A stretch of 34,417 bases of DNA from Pseudomonadota bacterium (lineage in GTDB: Bacteria > Pseudomonadota > Gammaproteobacteria > Steroidobacterales > Woeseiaceae): assembly GCA_022572185.1 (NCBI GenBank), contig JACZWL010000034.1, forward strand, positions 1-34,417, given 5' to 3'. A program made the translations under genes and the position numbers. This document shows positions 6,184 through 23,900 of this stretch, piece after piece; positions within the stretch are counted from its first letter, which is position 1; every line of letters starts with the position of its first letter. Under the pieces are notes generated by a model. That model had not been told where the DNA came from. It worked only from the letters and a program-made list of their open reading frames with translations, and made no database searches.

Positions 6184-7446
6184 ATGACGGATAACAGGAA
6201 GTTTCTAAGAACTCTGTTTGATACGGCCGTCGCCGCCGCTCAAGCTGCGATCCTGATGCCTGAGAAATTACCTCCCTGTCCCAGGGGAAGAACCCTCGTC
6301 ATTGGCGCCGGTAAAGCAGCTGCGTCTATGGCGCGTGCCGTCGAGGACAACTGGCCGGCAGCACTGTCAGGCCTTGTCATCACCCCGTACGGACATTCGC
6401 TTGTCTGCGAACGGATCGAGGTCGTGGAAGCGGCCCACCCGGTTCCGGATTCGTCCGGACTCGACGCCGCGAAACGCATTCTGGCAATGGTCGGAGACCT
6501 TTCTGACGCGGACCTCGTTCTCTGCCTTCTGTCGGGCGGCGGCTCTGCCCTGCTGTCGATACCCGCCGAAGGTGTCAGCCTGCAAGACAAGCAATCGCTC
6601 ACCGCCGACCTGCTCAGGTCCGGCGCCAATATTGCCGAGATTAATTGTGTTCGCAAACACCTGTCAGCCATCAAAGGCGGCAGACTTGCCGTCGCTTGCT
6701 CTCCTGCACAGCTTGTGACCCTCGCGATCTCGGACGTGCCGGGCAATGACATATCGGTGATTGCGTCCGGACCGACGGTCCCTGACGAGACCAGCAGCAG
6801 AATGGCGCTCGACATCCTTCAGGCATACGGCGTTGACGCTCCGGAAAATGTACGCGCACACTTAAGAAGCGCTGCCGCGGAAACGCCCAAACCCGGCGAC
6901 TCGGTATTCGCAGGATCAGAGACCGTAATTCTCGCCACCGCCGACGATGCGATGAATGCGGCAGCCCGGGCCGCACGCCAAAACGACATCAAGCCGCTGA
7001 TTCTCGGCGACCTGACCGGGGACGCTACCGAACTCGCACAGAGCCAGGCCGCGCTGGCCAAAGAGGTCGCCGCAGGCAGCGGGCCTGTGCAGCCCCCCTG
7101 CGTCCTGATATCCGGCGGTGAAACCACGGTCAGGGTACGCGGCAAAGGCAAGGGTGGCCGCAATTGCGAATATGCGCTGGCGCTTGCATTGGCGTTAGAC
7201 CGTGCGCCGGAAATCTATGCGATAGCCTGTGACACGGATGGAATCGATGGCACAGAAGACAACGCGGGATGCTATGTCACGCCGGATTCGCTGCATCGCG
7301 CAGAAAAACGATCACTCGACGCCAGGAGCCTCCTGAATGAAAACGACAGTTATCGTTTTTTCTCTGAGATCGGAGATCTTGTCGTAACCGGACCTACCCG
7401 AACAAACGTTAACGACTTTCGGGCGCTTCTGATCACGAATCATTGA
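6184..7446 (+). CDS. Glycerate 2-kinase, MOFRL family
   Basis: This 420-residue protein has the two-domain architecture of GckA/TtuD-type kinases, which phosphorylate D-glycerate with ATP to give 2-phosphoglycerate. Visible signatures are VIGAGKAA (39-46), LSGGGSALLS (about 115-124), SDVPGND, and the C-terminal MOFRL region with LISGGETTVRVRGKGKGGRN followed by ACDTDGIDGTEDNAG. The ATG begins immediately after the TAA of the upstream PRTase gene. Next to a purine pathway ending in glyoxylate, it plausibly completes glyoxylate, tartronate semialdehyde, glycerate and 2-phosphoglycerate. The carboligase and reductase needed for the first steps are not in this window. Hydroxypyruvate-linked roles in serine metabolism are an alternative. 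Confidence 0.9.
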   Translation: MTDNRKFLRTLFDTAVAAAQAAILMPEKLPPCPRGRTLVIGAGKAAASMARAVEDNWPAALSGLVITPYGHSLVCERIEVVEAAHPVPDSSGLDAAKRILAMVGDLSDADLVLCLLSGGGSALLSIPAEGVSLQDKQSLTADLLRSGANIAEINCVRKHLSAIKGGRLAVACSPAQLVTLAISDVPGNDISVIASGPTVPDETSSRMALDILQAYGVDAPENVRAHLRSAAAETPKPGDSVFAGSETVILATADDAMNAAARAARQNDIKPLILGDLTGDATELAQSQAALAKEVAAGSGPVQPPCVLISGGETTVRVRGKGKGGRNCEYALALALALDRAPEIYAIACDTDGIDGTEDNAGCYVTPDSLHRAEKRSLDARSLLNENDSYRFFSEIGDLVVTGPTRTNVNDFRALLITNH

Positions 7447-7492
7447 TCGGCGAAGCCGACTCATTGATCGATGCAGCATGAAGCGTCGATCA
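7441..7492. terminator. Hairpins between the convergent glycerate kinase and guaD genes
   Basis: A short CGGC-gaa-GCCG stem lies at 7448-7458. A longer inverted repeat pairs TGATCGATGC (7465-7474) with GCGTCGATCA (7483-7492), matching at nine of ten positions. CATTGATCG occurs twice (7441-7449 and 7463-7471). There is no T-run, so an intrinsic terminator is only a possibility. The position between two converging stop codons suggests a shared transcript end. Confidence 0.4.
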
Positions 7493-8803
7493 CCCCACGC
7501 TATGCGCCAGTTCACCCATCAGATAGGTCGCCGCGACGGAGCGATCGTCGCCCAGCATTATCAGGGCGAATAGTTTCTCAGCCACGTCATCTGATCTGCT
7601 GAGCCTGCGGGATGTGATCGATATGGCTTTGGCATCAAGCACGACGAAGTCGGCTTCTTTCCCTGGCTCGAAGTTGCCGATTCTGTCCTCGAGATAAAGT
7701 GCTCTGGCGGCCCCGAGTGTTGCCAGGTACAACGCATCGAAAGGCGGTAAGCCTTGACCCAGCAGATGCAGCACCTTATACGCCTCACTCACCGTCCGCA
7801 GCATACTCAAACTCGTGCCGCCGCCAATGTCTGTGCCAAGACCGACACGGATGCCTTTGTCATGCGCCGACCGCAGATCGAACAGGCCACTGCCAAGGAA
7901 CATATTTGAACTCGGGCAGAAAGCGATAGCGCCCCCGTGGTCAGCCATCGACTTTTGGTCACGGTCATCGAGGTGCAGACAGTGCGCGAATACGGATCGT
8001 TCCCGTAGCAGTCCAAAATGTTCATAGACATCAAGGTAACTTCGGCTCCAGGAAAATTGCTTCGCGATCAGTTCGACCTCGTCCTTGTTTTCCGCCAGGT
8101 GCGTGTGAACATATACGTCAGGATGTTCACTCGCGAGACGTCCAGCCTCGGCAAGCTGGCCCTCGCTGGATGTTACGGCAAACCGCGGCGTGATCGCGTA
8201 GCTCAGGCGGCCCTTTCCGTGCCACTTGTTGATCAGTTCCAGACTGTCTGTGTAGCCGGACTGGGCGTCGTCCCTGAGTTCTTCCGGGCAGTTCTTGTCC
8301 ATTAGAACTTTGCCCGCCAACAGGCGCATGTTTTGTCTTAACGCTTTGTCGAAGATTGCGTCGACCGACTGCGGGTGAACTGTTGCAAACACCAGCGCCG
8401 TCGTCGTGCCGTTCCGCAGAAGTTCGTCGACAAAGAAATCGGCGACCTCTGCCGCATGTGCCGCATCTGCAAATTTCTGCTCCACCGGGTAGGCATATCT
8501 GTTGAGCCAGTCGAGCAGCTGTTCGCCATAGGATGCGATGATGTCGACTTGCGGGAAATGCACATGGCAATCGATCATGCCGGGAATGATCAGCTTGTCG
8601 CGATGCTCGACGACCTCTACGTCCTCGGACAGGCCGGGAAGCAGAGCCTCTGCTTCACCGGTCTCACGCACATAGCCGTTCTCGACGATCAGGAGCCCGT
8701 CGTCGATGTATTCGACAGCTGAAGACTTGTTGTGATCTGTCGCGCCGCGCGGATCGGCAAGGCAGTGCAGGATCGAAGCTCTGAATGCGGTAGTGGTCGC
8801 CAT
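7490..8803 (-). CDS. guaD: Guanine deaminase
   Basis: This 437-residue amidohydrolase-superfamily enzyme is expected to convert guanine to xanthine and ammonia in the cytoplasm. Zinc-site signatures are PGMIDCHVHFPQ with H80 and H82, then HTHLAENKDEVE, then HCLHLDD, then LGTDIGGGTSLSM with the catalytic aspartate. The combination GTDIGGGTSLSM and a C-terminal region with DDRSVAATYLMGE-like composition is typical of GuaD rather than other deaminases. The ATG at 8803 lies five bases past the allA stop. The 18 upstream in-frame residues are basic, unlike the family, and overlap allA, so they are rejected. It is the last gene of uraD-alc-allA-guaD. It feeds xanthine to the XDH encoded by the second operon. 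Confidence 0.92.
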   Translation of the reverse strand: MATTTAFRASILHCLADPRGATDHNKSSAVEYIDDGLLIVENGYVRETGEAEALLPGLSEDVEVVEHRDKLIIPGMIDCHVHFPQVDIIASYGEQLLDWLNRYAYPVEQKFADAAHAAEVADFFVDELLRNGTTTALVFATVHPQSVDAIFDKALRQNMRLLAGKVLMDKNCPEELRDDAQSGYTDSLELINKWHGKGRLSYAITPRFAVTSSEGQLAEAGRLASEHPDVYVHTHLAENKDEVELIAKQFSWSRSYLDVYEHFGLLRERSVFAHCLHLDDRDQKSMADHGGAIAFCPSSNMFLGSGLFDLRSAHDKGIRVGLGTDIGGGTSLSMLRTVSEAYKVLHLLGQGLPPFDALYLATLGAARALYLEDRIGNFEPGKEADFVVLDAKAISITSRRLSRSDDVAEKLFALIMLGDDRSVAATYLMGELAHSVG

Positions 8804-20018: not shown

Positions 20019-21788
20019 ATGAAGTCGGCGACATTTTGGCTGGGCGTGATTGTACTTGCCGCATTCGAGTCGACCGCGGCCCTTGGCGCCGAGCCTTTCG
20101 CGCAAGGCAAAGCGCTCAACGATCTGCGCTGGGAGCTGCGCTTCAACTTTCCGAAGTGCCGCCACGAGGGTCACGCCAGGGACGCGTGGTGCCAGAAAGA
20201 AGACATTCGCAGCGCTGCGAACGACGCTGGCATCGAGGAGAAGCTAATAGCGTGGGCATCTCACGAGAAGACGAGGTCGATTCAGATGGCGTATTTTTCC
20301 TTCTCGAATCAGCCCGTGCGCGAGGCGCTCTGTGAGGCCGCGGAACGAGGTGTGGCAGTCACGCTTTACATCGACCAGAGCAACGAGAAGCACCGGAACG
20401 TCCAGGCCCTCGACGATTGCGAGGGGTTCGTCGGTGCCGCCGAGAACACGACGATCGTACCGAAGGGCAAAGGACCGTTCGGCTCACGCGGTGCCTATCT
20501 GCTGCACATAAAGATCTTCCTTGCCAGTGAGTCGCGATCGCCGGTTCCCCTCTCCTCCATCGACAACGAGGAAGACTACGCGTTCGCGCTCGCAGGCCGC
20601 ACGCGCTTCACCTCGAGCAGCGCCAATCTCTCGACGTACGGGACCAGCCTGCACTTCGAGAACTGGATCTTCTTCAACGCGCCCACGAATGACTATCTTG
20701 CCCAGGCGAATCTGTGCATCTTCTCGGCTCTCGCTGCAACCGGCCGTGACGCCCGGTCCCGGTTCGCCGCGAAGTATGCAGCCTGTCGGACCCAGATCGA
20801 ATCTCCGCCGAGAGACGACATCGAGCTGTTCGTGACCCCTCACGACTCACTGAGCCCGAAGATGAGCGATGGGCTCTCACGGATCCTCGCGGAAGCTGAA
20901 GACGAGCTGCTGGTCGCGGCTCACCGACTCACCACTGGCAAGATCTACAACCCGCTGATCGAACGCATCTCAAGCGGGGTCGACGTGTCCGTCGTATTCG
21001 ACGATGACATACTCCGGACGGGCGTCGTGGACGGAGGCCCCGTGCTTTCTGTCGGCGTGTGGGACGTAAAGGCCGACCGGGCGCTCCGCGATGCCGGCGC
21101 CAAGCTATCCTACATGGAGACCCGCCCCAACCAGCTCCACCACAACAAGTTCATCGTCGCGGACCGCAAACTGGTCCTTCAGGGCGCCCCTAACTTCACG
21201 GCGGCCGCGTTCAATCTCTACGGTCTGGGGCACTACGAGAATCTGTACCTCATCGAAGACAAGAAGATTATCCGCGCCTACCGGACAGCCTGGCGACGCT
21301 TGCACAAGCTGGCCACCTCACGCCCCGACCATCCGGTTGGAGATCATGCAGATCGCCCCTTGCGCGACTTCTCACGGAGCGGGGGCAAAGCGGGCTCGGC
21401 TCCGTCAGACGCGAATGTTGCCTATCTCAACATGCCGGGAATGGAAGACCTCGGACTGCCGTTTTCCGCTGCCGTGCGTGTGGACAACACACTCTATGTT
21501 TCAGGCAATGTCGGCAACATACCCGGCACGCTCGATCTGGCGCCGGGTGGCATTCAGGGTGAGACGAAGCAGACTCTCGACAACATCAAGGCGGTGCTGG
21601 AGCAATTCGGTTCCTCGATGGACAAGGTCGTGAAATGCACCATTTTCCTGGCCGATATCGGCGAGTGGGGCGCGATGAATGAGGTGTACAGGACCTACTT
21701 CAAGAACCCGCCGGCCCGCAGTGCCCTGGGGGCCAGCGGCCTTGCCCTGGGTGCGCGCGTCGAGATCGAGTGTATTGCGACGATGTAA
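20019..21788 (+). CDS. Secreted phospholipase-D-like protein fused to a C-terminal RidA domain
   Basis: This is a 589-residue protein. Residues 1-24 form a Sec signal peptide (LGVIVLAAFESTAALGA). Residues about 60-450 form a two-lobed PLD-like nuclease/phospholipase region. The first lobe has LLHIKIFLAS (H163, K165) and SSSANLS. The second has a clear HxKx4D motif (H375, K377, D382), followed by QGAPNFTAAAFN. Residues about 465-589 form a complete RidA/YjgF domain with VDNTLYVSGNVG, FGSSMDKVVKCTIFLADI, the key arginine R567 in PPARSALG and E584 in EIECIA. RidA proteins normally act in the cytoplasm as enamine/imine deaminases, so export of one fused to a PLD module is unusual. The substrate is unknown. 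The first HKD lobe looks degenerate because the downstream aspartate is absent. Confidence 0.8.
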   Translation: MKSATFWLGVIVLAAFESTAALGAEPFAQGKALNDLRWELRFNFPKCRHEGHARDAWCQKEDIRSAANDAGIEEKLIAWASHEKTRSIQMAYFSFSNQPVREALCEAAERGVAVTLYIDQSNEKHRNVQALDDCEGFVGAAENTTIVPKGKGPFGSRGAYLLHIKIFLASESRSPVPLSSIDNEEDYAFALAGRTRFTSSSANLSTYGTSLHFENWIFFNAPTNDYLAQANLCIFSALAATGRDARSRFAAKYAACRTQIESPPRDDIELFVTPHDSLSPKMSDGLSRILAEAEDELLVAAHRLTTGKIYNPLIERISSGVDVSVVFDDDILRTGVVDGGPVLSVGVWDVKADRALRDAGAKLSYMETRPNQLHHNKFIVADRKLVLQGAPNFTAAAFNLYGLGHYENLYLIEDKKIIRAYRTAWRRLHKLATSRPDHPVGDHADRPLRDFSRSGGKAGSAPSDANVAYLNMPGMEDLGLPFSAAVRVDNTLYVSGNVGNIPGTLDLAPGGIQGETKQTLDNIKAVLEQFGSSMDKVVKCTIFLADIGEWGAMNEVYRTYFKNPPARSALGASGLALGARVEIECIATM

Positions 21789-21806
21789 TTGTGAATGGTG
21801 CCGGAC

Positions 21807-22032
21807 CACTGCTGTCCCATAAACCGGGTACGACGATCAAGGACATGGGTTGCCAGCCTTCAGTCTGAGACCGTGGCCCGCAGGGATGCGGGCCCCGAGC
21901 CTACATGGACGTACTTGCGGCGTGTCTCAGACTGAAGGCTGGCAATTCATGTCCGTAGTGATTCGCCCTGTCGGAACCCCTCGCAACTACTGTGATCCAG
22001 TCAATGATGCAATCTTTTATGGGACAGCAGTG
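21807..22032. mobile_element. MITE-like non-autonomous element with 17-bp terminal inverted repeats and 9-bp target duplication
   Basis: The left end CACTGCTGTCCCATAAA (21807-21823) is the exact reverse complement of the right end TTTATGGGACAGCAGTG (22016-22032). Each end is flanked outside by the same nine bases GTGCCGGAC in direct orientation (21798-21806 and 22033-22041), as expected from a target-site duplication. The 226-bp interior has no transposase. It contains a second nested inverted repeat and a hairpin. It sits between the convergent stops of the PLD-RidA gene and the phosphatase gene. The parental transposon family is not identified. Confidence 0.85.
21841..21954. repeat. Nested inverted repeat with central hairpin inside the MITE-like element
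   Basis: The 31-base arms at 21841-21871 and 21924-21954 are reverse complements apart from two adjacent mismatches. Between them lies GGCCCGCA-ggga-TGCGGGCC at 21875-21894, a perfect 8-bp stem. In RNA this would fold into a long branched hairpin and may act as a terminator for the two converging genes. It resembles REP-type dispersed repeats, possibly captured by the outer element. Confidence 0.75.
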
Positions 22033-22046
22033 GTGCCGGACTTATT

Positions 22047-23900
22047 TTACCGCTCCAAGAGATTATCGCGGCGCCTGGCCAGAGCCTTGATGCGGCCTTT
22101 GTCGAGCACATCCCCCAACTCCTCGTTCAGGTAGTCACCGGTCAGCGCCGACAGCGCTTTTTGCCAGCCGCCGCCGAGATGCAGTTTATTGCCGCTTCGT
22201 ACCTCCACGTTCTCGACGTATGTCGGCAGCCCCCGTTTTTTCGAAAACGCGTTTTGGTGTCCCGTGAGTATCAGCTGCCAGTTGTCAATGCTGTAAAGCA
22301 TGTTGTCCTGCTGCCGGTCCGGGTTGTAGATCAGGGAATCGAATATATACATCGCCTGCCATTGTTCGTCCAGCGGGCACCACGCTGAACTCCCTCTTCT
22401 ATTCGCGGCCCGTTCCTCGTCGTTCTGCATGCTGCGCGGTATAAATTGTAACGAGCCATTTTTGCCGCGAACCTCCCTCCCGACCGTAACGGGTACCATG
22501 CCGAGGCCGAGCAAAAGGTCGAGACGATAGGCGGCGAGTTCCGGAAAAACACCCTTGGCTCGCGGGCTCGCGGAGAATACTGCCGAAATACTCTCGCCGA
22601 AGTAAGTGACGTTGACGATCCTCCGTCCCGACTCCGGGGTGGTTATCGGTGTTATCTCTCCATTGGCCAGAATCTGCTGCAGCTCATCGGCGCCCAAGTC
22701 TCCCGACCGGTACCCCACCCTGCGCGGGTGAGGCACCGGTATGTAAGCTGCTGACCCTTTTTCATTGACAACAGTCAGTATCTCGCCTTCGATGACCAGC
22801 GCATTGCCGCTGCCCTTGTAAGCAGCACTCAACATGCCGGTGTCGATTTCGATGACGCGGCCATCCATGCGCTCGAGCACGCGACGCGTGAGGGTAGGCG
22901 TATGGCCGATAACGACGCGATCAGCCTCGATGGCCGCCAGGGCCCCGGCAAGCTTGTCTTCCTCGATCAGGGGCCCGCAGCCGACATTGCCGCGGTACCA
23001 CGTCGGGCTGCTCTTGCCGTGAATGCTTGCATCATTGAGTTTTAGCACCGTCTTAATTGCATCTATGATGTAGTTCGCGCGTCCCCCTTTATCACGCCCG
23101 GACTCGAGTATTTCCGCCTGCCGGTAAAAGCTGTCGGTAGGGCTGAGAATGCCTTTGTCAATCAGCACTTCCGTTTGAGTAACGTAGTCGCGCACTTGAG
23201 ACTTAAGCTCGCGATTGACGCCTTCCAGTCCGAGTTCGGCAACCAGCGGCGATAGTCCGCCGTGTACGAATGCCGTGCCATTGATCACGATCAGCAACGG
23301 CTTCGACATCAGCCAGGGCCCGTACGCTCCATTCGAGCCAAAGGCGCGGCGATGCCCGAAAAACCCTGGCGGGTATTTTCCCTGGTATTCATCACGCAAC
23401 CAGTCTTCGTTCGAATTTTTCGGCCTGGTCCTCCGATACGCCTGAAACCCTCGCTCGCGGTCTTCCGCAGATTCCTCGTCGGCAAACGCAGCGTATTCCT
23501 CTTTCGAGACATACCTGAGATCGCCGACCAGATTCATGACTTCGTGATTCCCGAGCAGCAGGTGCACGCGTCCGCCGGCATCCGGCGCTTCTTCTTCAAG
23601 GCGCATGATCAGGTCCATTACCTTTCGGGACTCGGGTCCGCGATCGAGAATGTCGCCCGTAAACACGAGATGCGTCGCGCCGCCGTTCCAACCGAGCGCT
23701 TCGTCAAGTACGCCGGCATTTATCAGTGTCGCTTTCAACGCGCCAAAGGCACCATGCACATCGCCGACCGCAACGACCCGTTCGATGCCCGACCAGCGCC
23801 ATTCTTCGGCCAGCGCCTGTGCCTGGCATAAGGCCGCCGACAGTACAACCGCGGCAGACGCCGCGGTGATCAGTGCCCGGAATTGCCGATTTACTTTCAA
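22047..23900 (-). CDS. Exported calcineurin-like phosphatase with C-terminal kinase-like domain
   Basis: This is a 617-residue protein with an N-terminal Sec signal peptide (residues 1-31). The metallophosphatase domain has VVAVGDVHG (46-50 for the motif), GDILDRG (82-88), GNHE (117-120), later FVHGGLSP and VVIGHTP. It resembles the Shewanella-like (Shelph) phosphatases. Residues about 400-617 are an additional region. NPDRQQDN (526-533) and LILTGHQNAF (543-552) recall the catalytic and metal-binding segments of HipA/FAM20-like kinases, but the expected IDH aspartate is replaced by TGH. There is no ATG at a suitable place. A TTG at 23900 is preceded by GGAG with a six-base spacer and opens directly into the signal peptide; a GTG at 23927 is the alternative. 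It diverges from the CotH-like gene. Confidence 0.75.
   Translation of the reverse strand: MKVNRQFRALITAASAAVVLSAALCQAQALAEEWRWSGIERVVAVGDVHGAFGALKATLINAGVLDEALGWNGGATHLVFTGDILDRGPESRKVMDLIMRLEEEAPDAGGRVHLLLGNHEVMNLVGDLRYVSKEEYAAFADEESAEDRERGFQAYRRTRPKNSNEDWLRDEYQGKYPPGFFGHRRAFGSNGAYGPWLMSKPLLIVINGTAFVHGGLSPLVAELGLEGVNRELKSQVRDYVTQTEVLIDKGILSPTDSFYRQAEILESGRDKGGRANYIIDAIKTVLKLNDASIHGKSSPTWYRGNVGCGPLIEEDKLAGALAAIEADRVVIGHTPTLTRRVLERMDGRVIEIDTGMLSAAYKGSGNALVIEGEILTVVNEKGSAAYIPVPHPRRVGYRSGDLGADELQQILANGEITPITTPESGRRIVNVTYFGESISAVFSASPRAKGVFPELAAYRLDLLLGLGMVPVTVGREVRGKNGSLQFIPRSMQNDEERAANRRGSSAWCPLDEQWQAMYIFDSLIYNPDRQQDNMLYSIDNWQLILTGHQNAFSKKRGLPTYVENVEVRSGNKLHLGGGWQKALSALTGDYLNEELGDVLDKGRIKALARRRDNLLER

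Follow-up and report, generated by a model that had tools for sequence, protein, structure and literature searches.

CsrA/RsmA-binding RNAs of the CsrB and RsmZ kind carry GGA in hairpin loops. Folded single-strand hairpins also serve as substrates in IS200/IS605, in REP/RAYT systems and at attC sites, and in the integron attC one strand folds on a stem of variable sequence, the ends being conserved and the centre variable. For the protein side, the accessible text of PMC7705225 gives CANGGAYG as the RsmA consensus and RUACARGGAUGU as the CsrA consensus, with AUGGAUG also quoted. REPs are put at 20-40 bp (accessible text of PMC3733652 and PMC3116915), and GTAG or CGTC tags are the REP feature named in the title of PMC3733652. 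The IS4Sa subgroup of insertion sequences is described as having ends of the form CA------T, 8-10-bp duplications and a length between 1150 and 1750 bp (PMC2266710, partial text), and ISRm22, of the IS4 family, is on record as targeting REPs (PMC1525189, partial text).

The window analysed here is the whole stretch of 34,417 nucleotides, and the genome that holds it (G000) measures 3.14 Mb in 99 contigs and is 96% complete. A MITE of 226 bp without a transposase, assigned to neither strand, occupies 21807..22032; it was delimited by direct reading and by genome matches, and its ends are common to IS4-family transposons. The left terminal inverted repeat is the 17-bp CACTGCTGTCCCATAAA (21807..21823, + strand), and the right one (22016..22032, - strand) is its exact reverse complement, 17/17, with the same 9-bp target duplication GTGCCGGAC in the same orientation on both sides (21798..21806 and 22033..22041, both +; direct read and flank scoring), just as the first-pass annotation had described. 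The pre-insertion site, GGTGCCGGACTTATTTT, consists of the right GTGCCGGAC and the TTATTTT that follows it. The placement between converging genes was also borne out: a plus-strand gene with L-PSP and PLD domains ends at its stop at 21788, 18 bp before the MITE start, and the 3' end of a minus-strand gene with a metallophosphoesterase domain lies at 22047, 14 bp past the MITE. The insertion was said to be recent, and relative to older copies this is supported, with an intact duplication and 98% identity to the copy on contig C78; the 59 relatives searched for a match to the window included none of its genus.

The MITE of the window gave 41 match rows in its own genome, at about 25 places by hand count, partial copies and one lone inner repeat included, and this copy number excludes a chance origin of the structure. 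The 17-bp end, with up to two mismatches, was found at 45 sites, compared with one for the backwards control. Direct repeats flank 15 of the 17 scored two-ended copies (9/9 positions in seven, 8/9 in six and 7/9 in two), at a duplication length of 9 bp that falls within the 8-10 bp of IS4Sa, and the flanks of two scored copies, on contigs C64 and C12, are inverted instead. Both ends are present in L009 and L014 as well, whose flanks agree at just 4/9 and 5/9 positions; these two lie outside the 17. A search for other copies with different 9-bp duplications had been proposed as a check, and these places and flanks answer it in the affirmative; the reading as a 226-bp MITE-like element is upheld by the same-genome copies, mostly with their own 9-bp duplication, together with full-length transposons that share its ends. 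The feature is thus confirmed as real. The C12 element (L058, 1501-1739) is 239 bp long and has exact 17-bp ends around a different interior, a facing pair of REP-like sequences of the GTGGGAGCGGCTTCAGCCGCGATTGTCG type; its flanks, gaaaaaggtgtcagat and atctgacaccttttttc, are inverted rather than direct repeats, and L018 on C64 is similar.

Reconstructed sites show a preference for the target 9-mer RNTYNRANY, and in the 15 copies with direct repeats the target begins with a purine and ends with a pyrimidine without exception. A/T tracts or terminator-like hairpins are frequent in the reconstructed sites, for example at L002 (cgggGGACGGACCccgtttttt) and also at L020. 'REP-like target' is a loose description, because neither GGGTCNGACCC nor GGTGTCAGACACC occurred, at up to one mismatch, in 112 kb of unique sequence from this genome; GGTGTCAGGTTTATTT, at up to two mismatches, occurred there five times against none expected, and at least two of these occurrences are MITE flanks themselves. 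Insertion into palindromic extragenic sequence is what the element has in common with REP-targeting insertion sequences of the ISRm22 type (PMC1525189, partial text), from which it differs in being a MITE and in having sites that loosely mix the GGTGYCRG type with terminator-like sequence. Based on approximate gene calls beyond the window, made with a home-made codon-usage finder, the copies lie between convergent genes in 11 cases, tandem genes in nine and divergent genes in two (n = 22, from 24 examined, two being at contig ends; counted in are L030, which is the inner repeat standing alone, one decayed copy and the C12 element), and in 20 of the 22 a gene 3' end lies on at least one side.

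Public genomes searched for the exact 17-mer yielded at least 95 stretches, and the pairing of ends in these loci led to more small elements and, among the matches listed, to six long transposons of 1264-1276 bp with the same ends, all in other genomes. A full-length transposon with the ends of the MITE, the second thing that was to be looked for, therefore exists. The duplications of the six agree at 9/9 positions in five and at 8/9 in one (L190), and the longest open stretch of every one carries the YREK motif, Y(2)R(3)E(6)K. In L179, the one tested for domains, the protein matches DUF4372 and DDE_Tnp_1. L179 has the identical 17 bases at both ends, and L134, L149, L190, L198 and L200 have them at one end, their other ends differing by at least one base. 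The MITE resembles these six transposons over the terminal 17-18 bases and nothing further. With IS4Sa (PMC2266710, partial text) it shares ends that fit CA------T, a 9-bp duplication, within the 8-10 bp of that subgroup, and, in the 1264-1276-bp transposons with its 17-bp end, the YREK motif; it differs in having no transposase and only the ends in common, and is an ordinary IS4Sa-type MITE. We suggest that it was moved in trans by an IS4-family transposase of IS4Sa type that recognised the 17-bp ends, and such an enzyme would cut with a 9-bp stagger and prefer RNTYNRANY, mostly near gene ends. No match to the DUF4372 transposase was found in the host genome, which at 96% completeness in 99 contigs is weak evidence of absence, and the MITE family is therefore probably stranded there at present.

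Two further elements were seen beside these. L180 is a MITE within a MITE, one pair of ends with a 9-bp duplication (7323-7580) lying inside another (7221-7648). At L132 (1853-2065 of OX638378, uncultured Pseudohongiella sp.) stands a MITE of 213 bp whose ends are the same but for two mismatches in one of them; it has a 9-bp duplication, the same inner tip and different arm middles.

The inner palindromic repeat is more interesting than the MITE that carries it. It spans 21841..21954 (+; covariance-model match 21843-21951, +) and occurs in either orientation in other MITE copies. Both interior structures reported by the first-pass annotation, a 31-base inverted repeat and an 8-bp GC hairpin, were located, at 21841-21954 and 21875-21894. 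The 31-nt left arm (21841..21871, +), whose sequence varies between copies, is complementary to the 31-nt right arm (21924..21954, +; inverted-repeat search and alignment), and in the window copy the arms are 94% complementary and 52 nt apart. The tip between them holds two hairpins. Hairpin 1, GGCCCGCA-GGGA-TGCGGGCC (21875..21894, +; direct read, fold and alignment), is the one with the 8-bp GC stem, and its loop with the closing pair, CAGGGATG (21881-21888, +), matches CANGGAYG by loop scoring. Hairpin 2 (21899..21921, +), which pairs GCC/GGC and TAC/GTA, comes from the alignment consensus, and its loop with the closing pair, CATGGACG (21904-21911, +), matches CANGGAYG by the same scoring. 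The MFE fold of the window copy differs from the consensus here: folded alone, the copy forms the stem and hairpin 1, and the hairpin 2 stretch pairs otherwise. Hairpin 2 does form when L041 and L050 are folded alone.

The locus had been called a palindrome inside a palindrome; the nesting stands, but its meaning is different, since the inner palindrome is one copy of a distinct family, dispersed through genomes, that also occurs free of the MITE. In the host genome the inner unit is found outside the MITE at L030 and on C10, and the repeat core alone matches other genomes, inside different arms and surroundings. A covariance model recovered the repeat in 51 of 274 genomes across Gammaproteobacteria, the host included, in 8 of 101 genomes of a family-level draw and in 27 of 398 genomes drawn phylum-wide, every one of the 27 belonging to Gammaproteobacteria; G147 alone has 37 copies. 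The inner palindrome is a member of a separate dispersed repeat family of Gammaproteobacteria, present in about one in five sampled genomes of the class, with tens of copies in some. Searched against Rfam 15, the window matched no family and the inner-repeat loci gave nothing at or above the gathering score; they had nine sub-threshold matches in six loci (best E 7.7e-5), five of the nine to microRNA hairpin families. Its core sequences had no match in plasmid and phage records. In the open-access literature we found no description of the family, no related paper for 15-base strings from the tip, and nothing on CsrA sites in repetitive or MITE elements, on spacer inversion by template switching between inverted repeats, on Woeseia insertion sequences or on IS4-family MITEs targeting REPs. 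As a dispersed intergenic palindrome the inner repeat is like REPs, REPINs and BIMEs, from which its length of about 110 bp, branched tip and variable arms set it apart (partial text of PMC3733652 and PMC3116915), so it is not the 20-40-bp palindrome of a REP. AGGGATG, TGGATG and CsrA do not appear in the accessible text of the REP paper PMC3733652.

Within the MITE, the inner unit has flipped repeatedly. The central 114 bp is matched in the opposite orientation too in several copies in the host genome, and relative to the outer part the inner unit is in plus orientation in 14 and in minus orientation in seven of the 21 scored copies (C22 was set by eye against the script label, and the decayed copy at C52:71845 was omitted). 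On a tree of the outer part from 19 copies, from which L010, L024 and L025 had been dropped as truncated or decayed, orientation required five Fitch changes (4-6 over 60 bootstraps), compared with 5.3 on average when the labels were shuffled on the same tree. Orientation is as good as random on the tree, and the inner unit therefore inverts often. Tip and arms may invert via their own inverted repeats, by recombination or by template switching between the arms. Very probably, the locus combines two nested mobile repeats, a trans-mobilised IS4Sa-type MITE and a dispersed gammaproteobacterial palindrome that inverts inside it.

The consensus structure was derived from an alignment of 39 copies (A1), collected by BLAST matches and by a pattern that demanded both GGA motifs, so that loop conservation in this set is by choice. 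RNAalifold gave 43 consensus pairs, 32 with double changes, and 97.5% of cells were paired, as against 72.9% in shuffles and 29-45% after the partners had been shifted by 1-3 columns. The structure consists of a long basal stem, a three-way junction and two hairpins with ANGGAY hexaloops. In the arms, read on the GGA strand, G.T pairs numbered 203 and A.C mismatches 42, with 148 other mismatches (196 distinct sequences under 57 genome labels; 49 stems were purely Watson-Crick). With each combination of genome, position and pair counted a single time, the numbers were 136 and 41, and 34 genomes leaned to G.T, five to A.C and 18 were tied. The covariance model scores G-U above A-C; the model-free A1 set shows the same lean (51 to 9), as do 115 copies under a scoring that mildly favours G.T (126 to 22). 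Equal numbers would be expected if double-stranded DNA alone mattered, and it is thus the GGA strand that folds, whether in RNA or in single-stranded DNA.

The loops on this strand were scored in sets A2-A5 (193 rows with 189 distinct ids, 182 scored, seven reverse-strand rows being omitted), which include some copies used in building the model and some that stand under two locus ids. GGA was present in both loops in 175 of the 182 rows, and the full ANGGAY was seen in 164 rows for loop 1 and in 167 for loop 2. Loop 1 was mostly CAGGGATG, CATGGATG or CATGGACG, and loop 2 mostly CAGGGATG, CAGGGACG, CATGGATG, CATGGACG or CACGGACG. The hairpin loops of the inner repeat present CANGGAYG, a feature of CsrA/RsmA-binding elements, and their free N and final pyrimidine vary as they do in the RsmA consensus.

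We tentatively favour, at somewhat less than even chances, the reading in which the GGA strand acts as RNA: each tip would be a putative double CsrA/RsmA site, and the copies, spread by the MITE, would be scattered regulator sites or a distributed sponge. It is suggested by the match of both loops to CANGGAYG, free N and Y included (consensus in the accessible text of PMC7705225), by the wobble asymmetry on the same GGA strand and by the presence of CsrA in the host genome. The GGA hairpin loops with CANGGAYG are shared with RNAs of the CsrB and RsmZ kind (consensus again from the partial text of PMC7705225); the differences are the many dispersed genomic copies and the lack of an Rfam family at threshold. 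The surroundings of the copies argue the other way. Among 96 copies from eight genomes (99 less three that shared over 40 bp with their called neighbours, on approximate gene calls), the GGA strand was antisense to both neighbours in 43 and sense to both in 17, with 19 convergent and 17 divergent placements. The lean to antisense was 11 to 1 in G141, 7 to 0 in G235, 4 to 0 in G243 and 6 to 1 in G002, weaker in G296 (7 to 4), and in G147 (7 to 9) and G262 (1 to 2) the counts were opposite and showed no lean. In most scored genomes these orientations are evidence against read-through from the neighbours. A placement in 5'-UTRs before start codons, suggested by the first 13 copies from G147, failed in the larger set.

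Moreover, repeat genomes did not clearly have CsrA more often (46 of 51) than the other genomes (189 of 223), and no association of the two was found across genomes. The repeat genomes with no listed CsrA match were G067, G127, G158, G244 and G253 (75, 88, 67, 86 and 98% complete, respectively; G244 and G253 were counted here as CsrA was absent among the matches listed), and G253 has nine and G127 has 13 inner-repeat copies. Gene orientation and CsrA presence do not support a simple role as an mRNA site. The most likely function of the tip's GGA strand is still that of a binding site for a CsrA/RsmA-type protein, a proposal we hold tentatively, and it would make the repeat a mobile regulatory RNA motif. 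A wider version is doubtful: undescribed, class-wide mobile repeats with twin GGA loops would be CsrA/RsmA sites that spread alone and as MITE passengers and are switched by inversion, with transposition distributing and re-orienting regulator sites.

Read as single-stranded DNA, the GGA strand would be a folded hairpin substrate for a putative transposase or recombinase, and its structure would be kept because only foldable copies move. By analogy with the systems named at the outset this is possible, if on the unlikely side. Strand-specific folding, the dispersed multi-copy distribution, the frequent antisense placement downstream of genes and the inversions of the inner unit are all consistent with it; against it, no target duplication of a consistent kind was made out at the inner repeat, and the fit of both loops to CANGGAYG would have to be chance. 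As in attC, one strand folds and the stem is variable, but the layout is the reverse, attC having conserved ends and a variable centre and the inner repeat a conserved tip and variable arms. Were the inner repeat such a DNA substrate, an undiscovered mobility system would be implied, and either way the copies are a natural data set on the persistence and flipping of long bacterial palindromes.

A third explanation, which we consider distinctly unlikely, gives the arms no selected function: their complementarity would be self-kept by template switching and conversion, the centre would flip, and the repeat would be MITE-borne junk. It draws on the divergence of the arms, which within genomes is far greater than that of the core, with complementarity kept. 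Mean core and arm identities were 0.83 and 0.42 in G147 (36 copies), 0.88 and 0.41 in G296 (17), 0.86 and 0.48 in G235 (10), 0.92 and 0.61 in G002 (14) and 0.92 and 0.59 in G141 (12), that is 83-92% for cores and 41-61% for arms in five other genomes, and 0.98 and 0.79 in G000 (18); the five sets that came from A4 were restricted to rows of 107-112 nt. Three G147 copies, L248, L249 and L251, have an identical core inside perfect arms of 29-33 bp that are unrelated, agreeing pairwise at 10-12 of 28 positions, and at L018 (G000 contig C64) a matching 2-nt insertion stands in both inner arms, as expected if one arm was copied from the other. The flips also look random on the tree. Against this, conversion alone predicts neither the excess of G.T over A.C nor the near-invariant loops, and some pairs with an identical core in G147 have related arms (nine pairs, arm identity 0.27-0.79, mean 0.60). 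Whichever process is at work, the arms stay complementary as their sequence drifts, the tip remaining near-constant.

No move of the inner unit alone was seen. One empty site was found, a G012 locus that lacks 209 bp, both arms included, relative to the orthologous site in G002; the difference is longer than the palindrome and may be a deletion in G012. The idea that arms are made from the flank at insertion was rejected, as the G012 empty site contains neither arm; there at least, unless G012 carries a deletion, the arms arrived with the insert.

That the MITE, set between converging genes, would terminate transcription in both directions wherever it lands, as had been proposed from its layout, is highly improbable and was rejected: a strong hairpin is predicted on either strand and a gene 3' end adjoins nearly all scored copies (20/22, as above), but a simple scan of 21600-22250 gave no terminator-like site, the flanking T-tracts belong to the target (TTATTTT here), some copies lie in sites that were already terminator-like, and the placement near gene ends is due to the target preference.

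Several individual loci stood out among the repeat genomes. L222 (G250) and L225 (G114) are single copies in two genomes of one genus, with the same arms and extra wobble pairs, and are perhaps one old conserved copy. On contig C1 of G575, five inner-repeat copies form a tandem array on the same strand (94416-95435) at a spacing of 227-229 bp. At L331 (G002 contig C61, about 1-40) lies a REP-like palindrome, GTAGGAGCGTCTCCTGAGGCGCGA, which occurs many times in G002 and G012, often in facing pairs.
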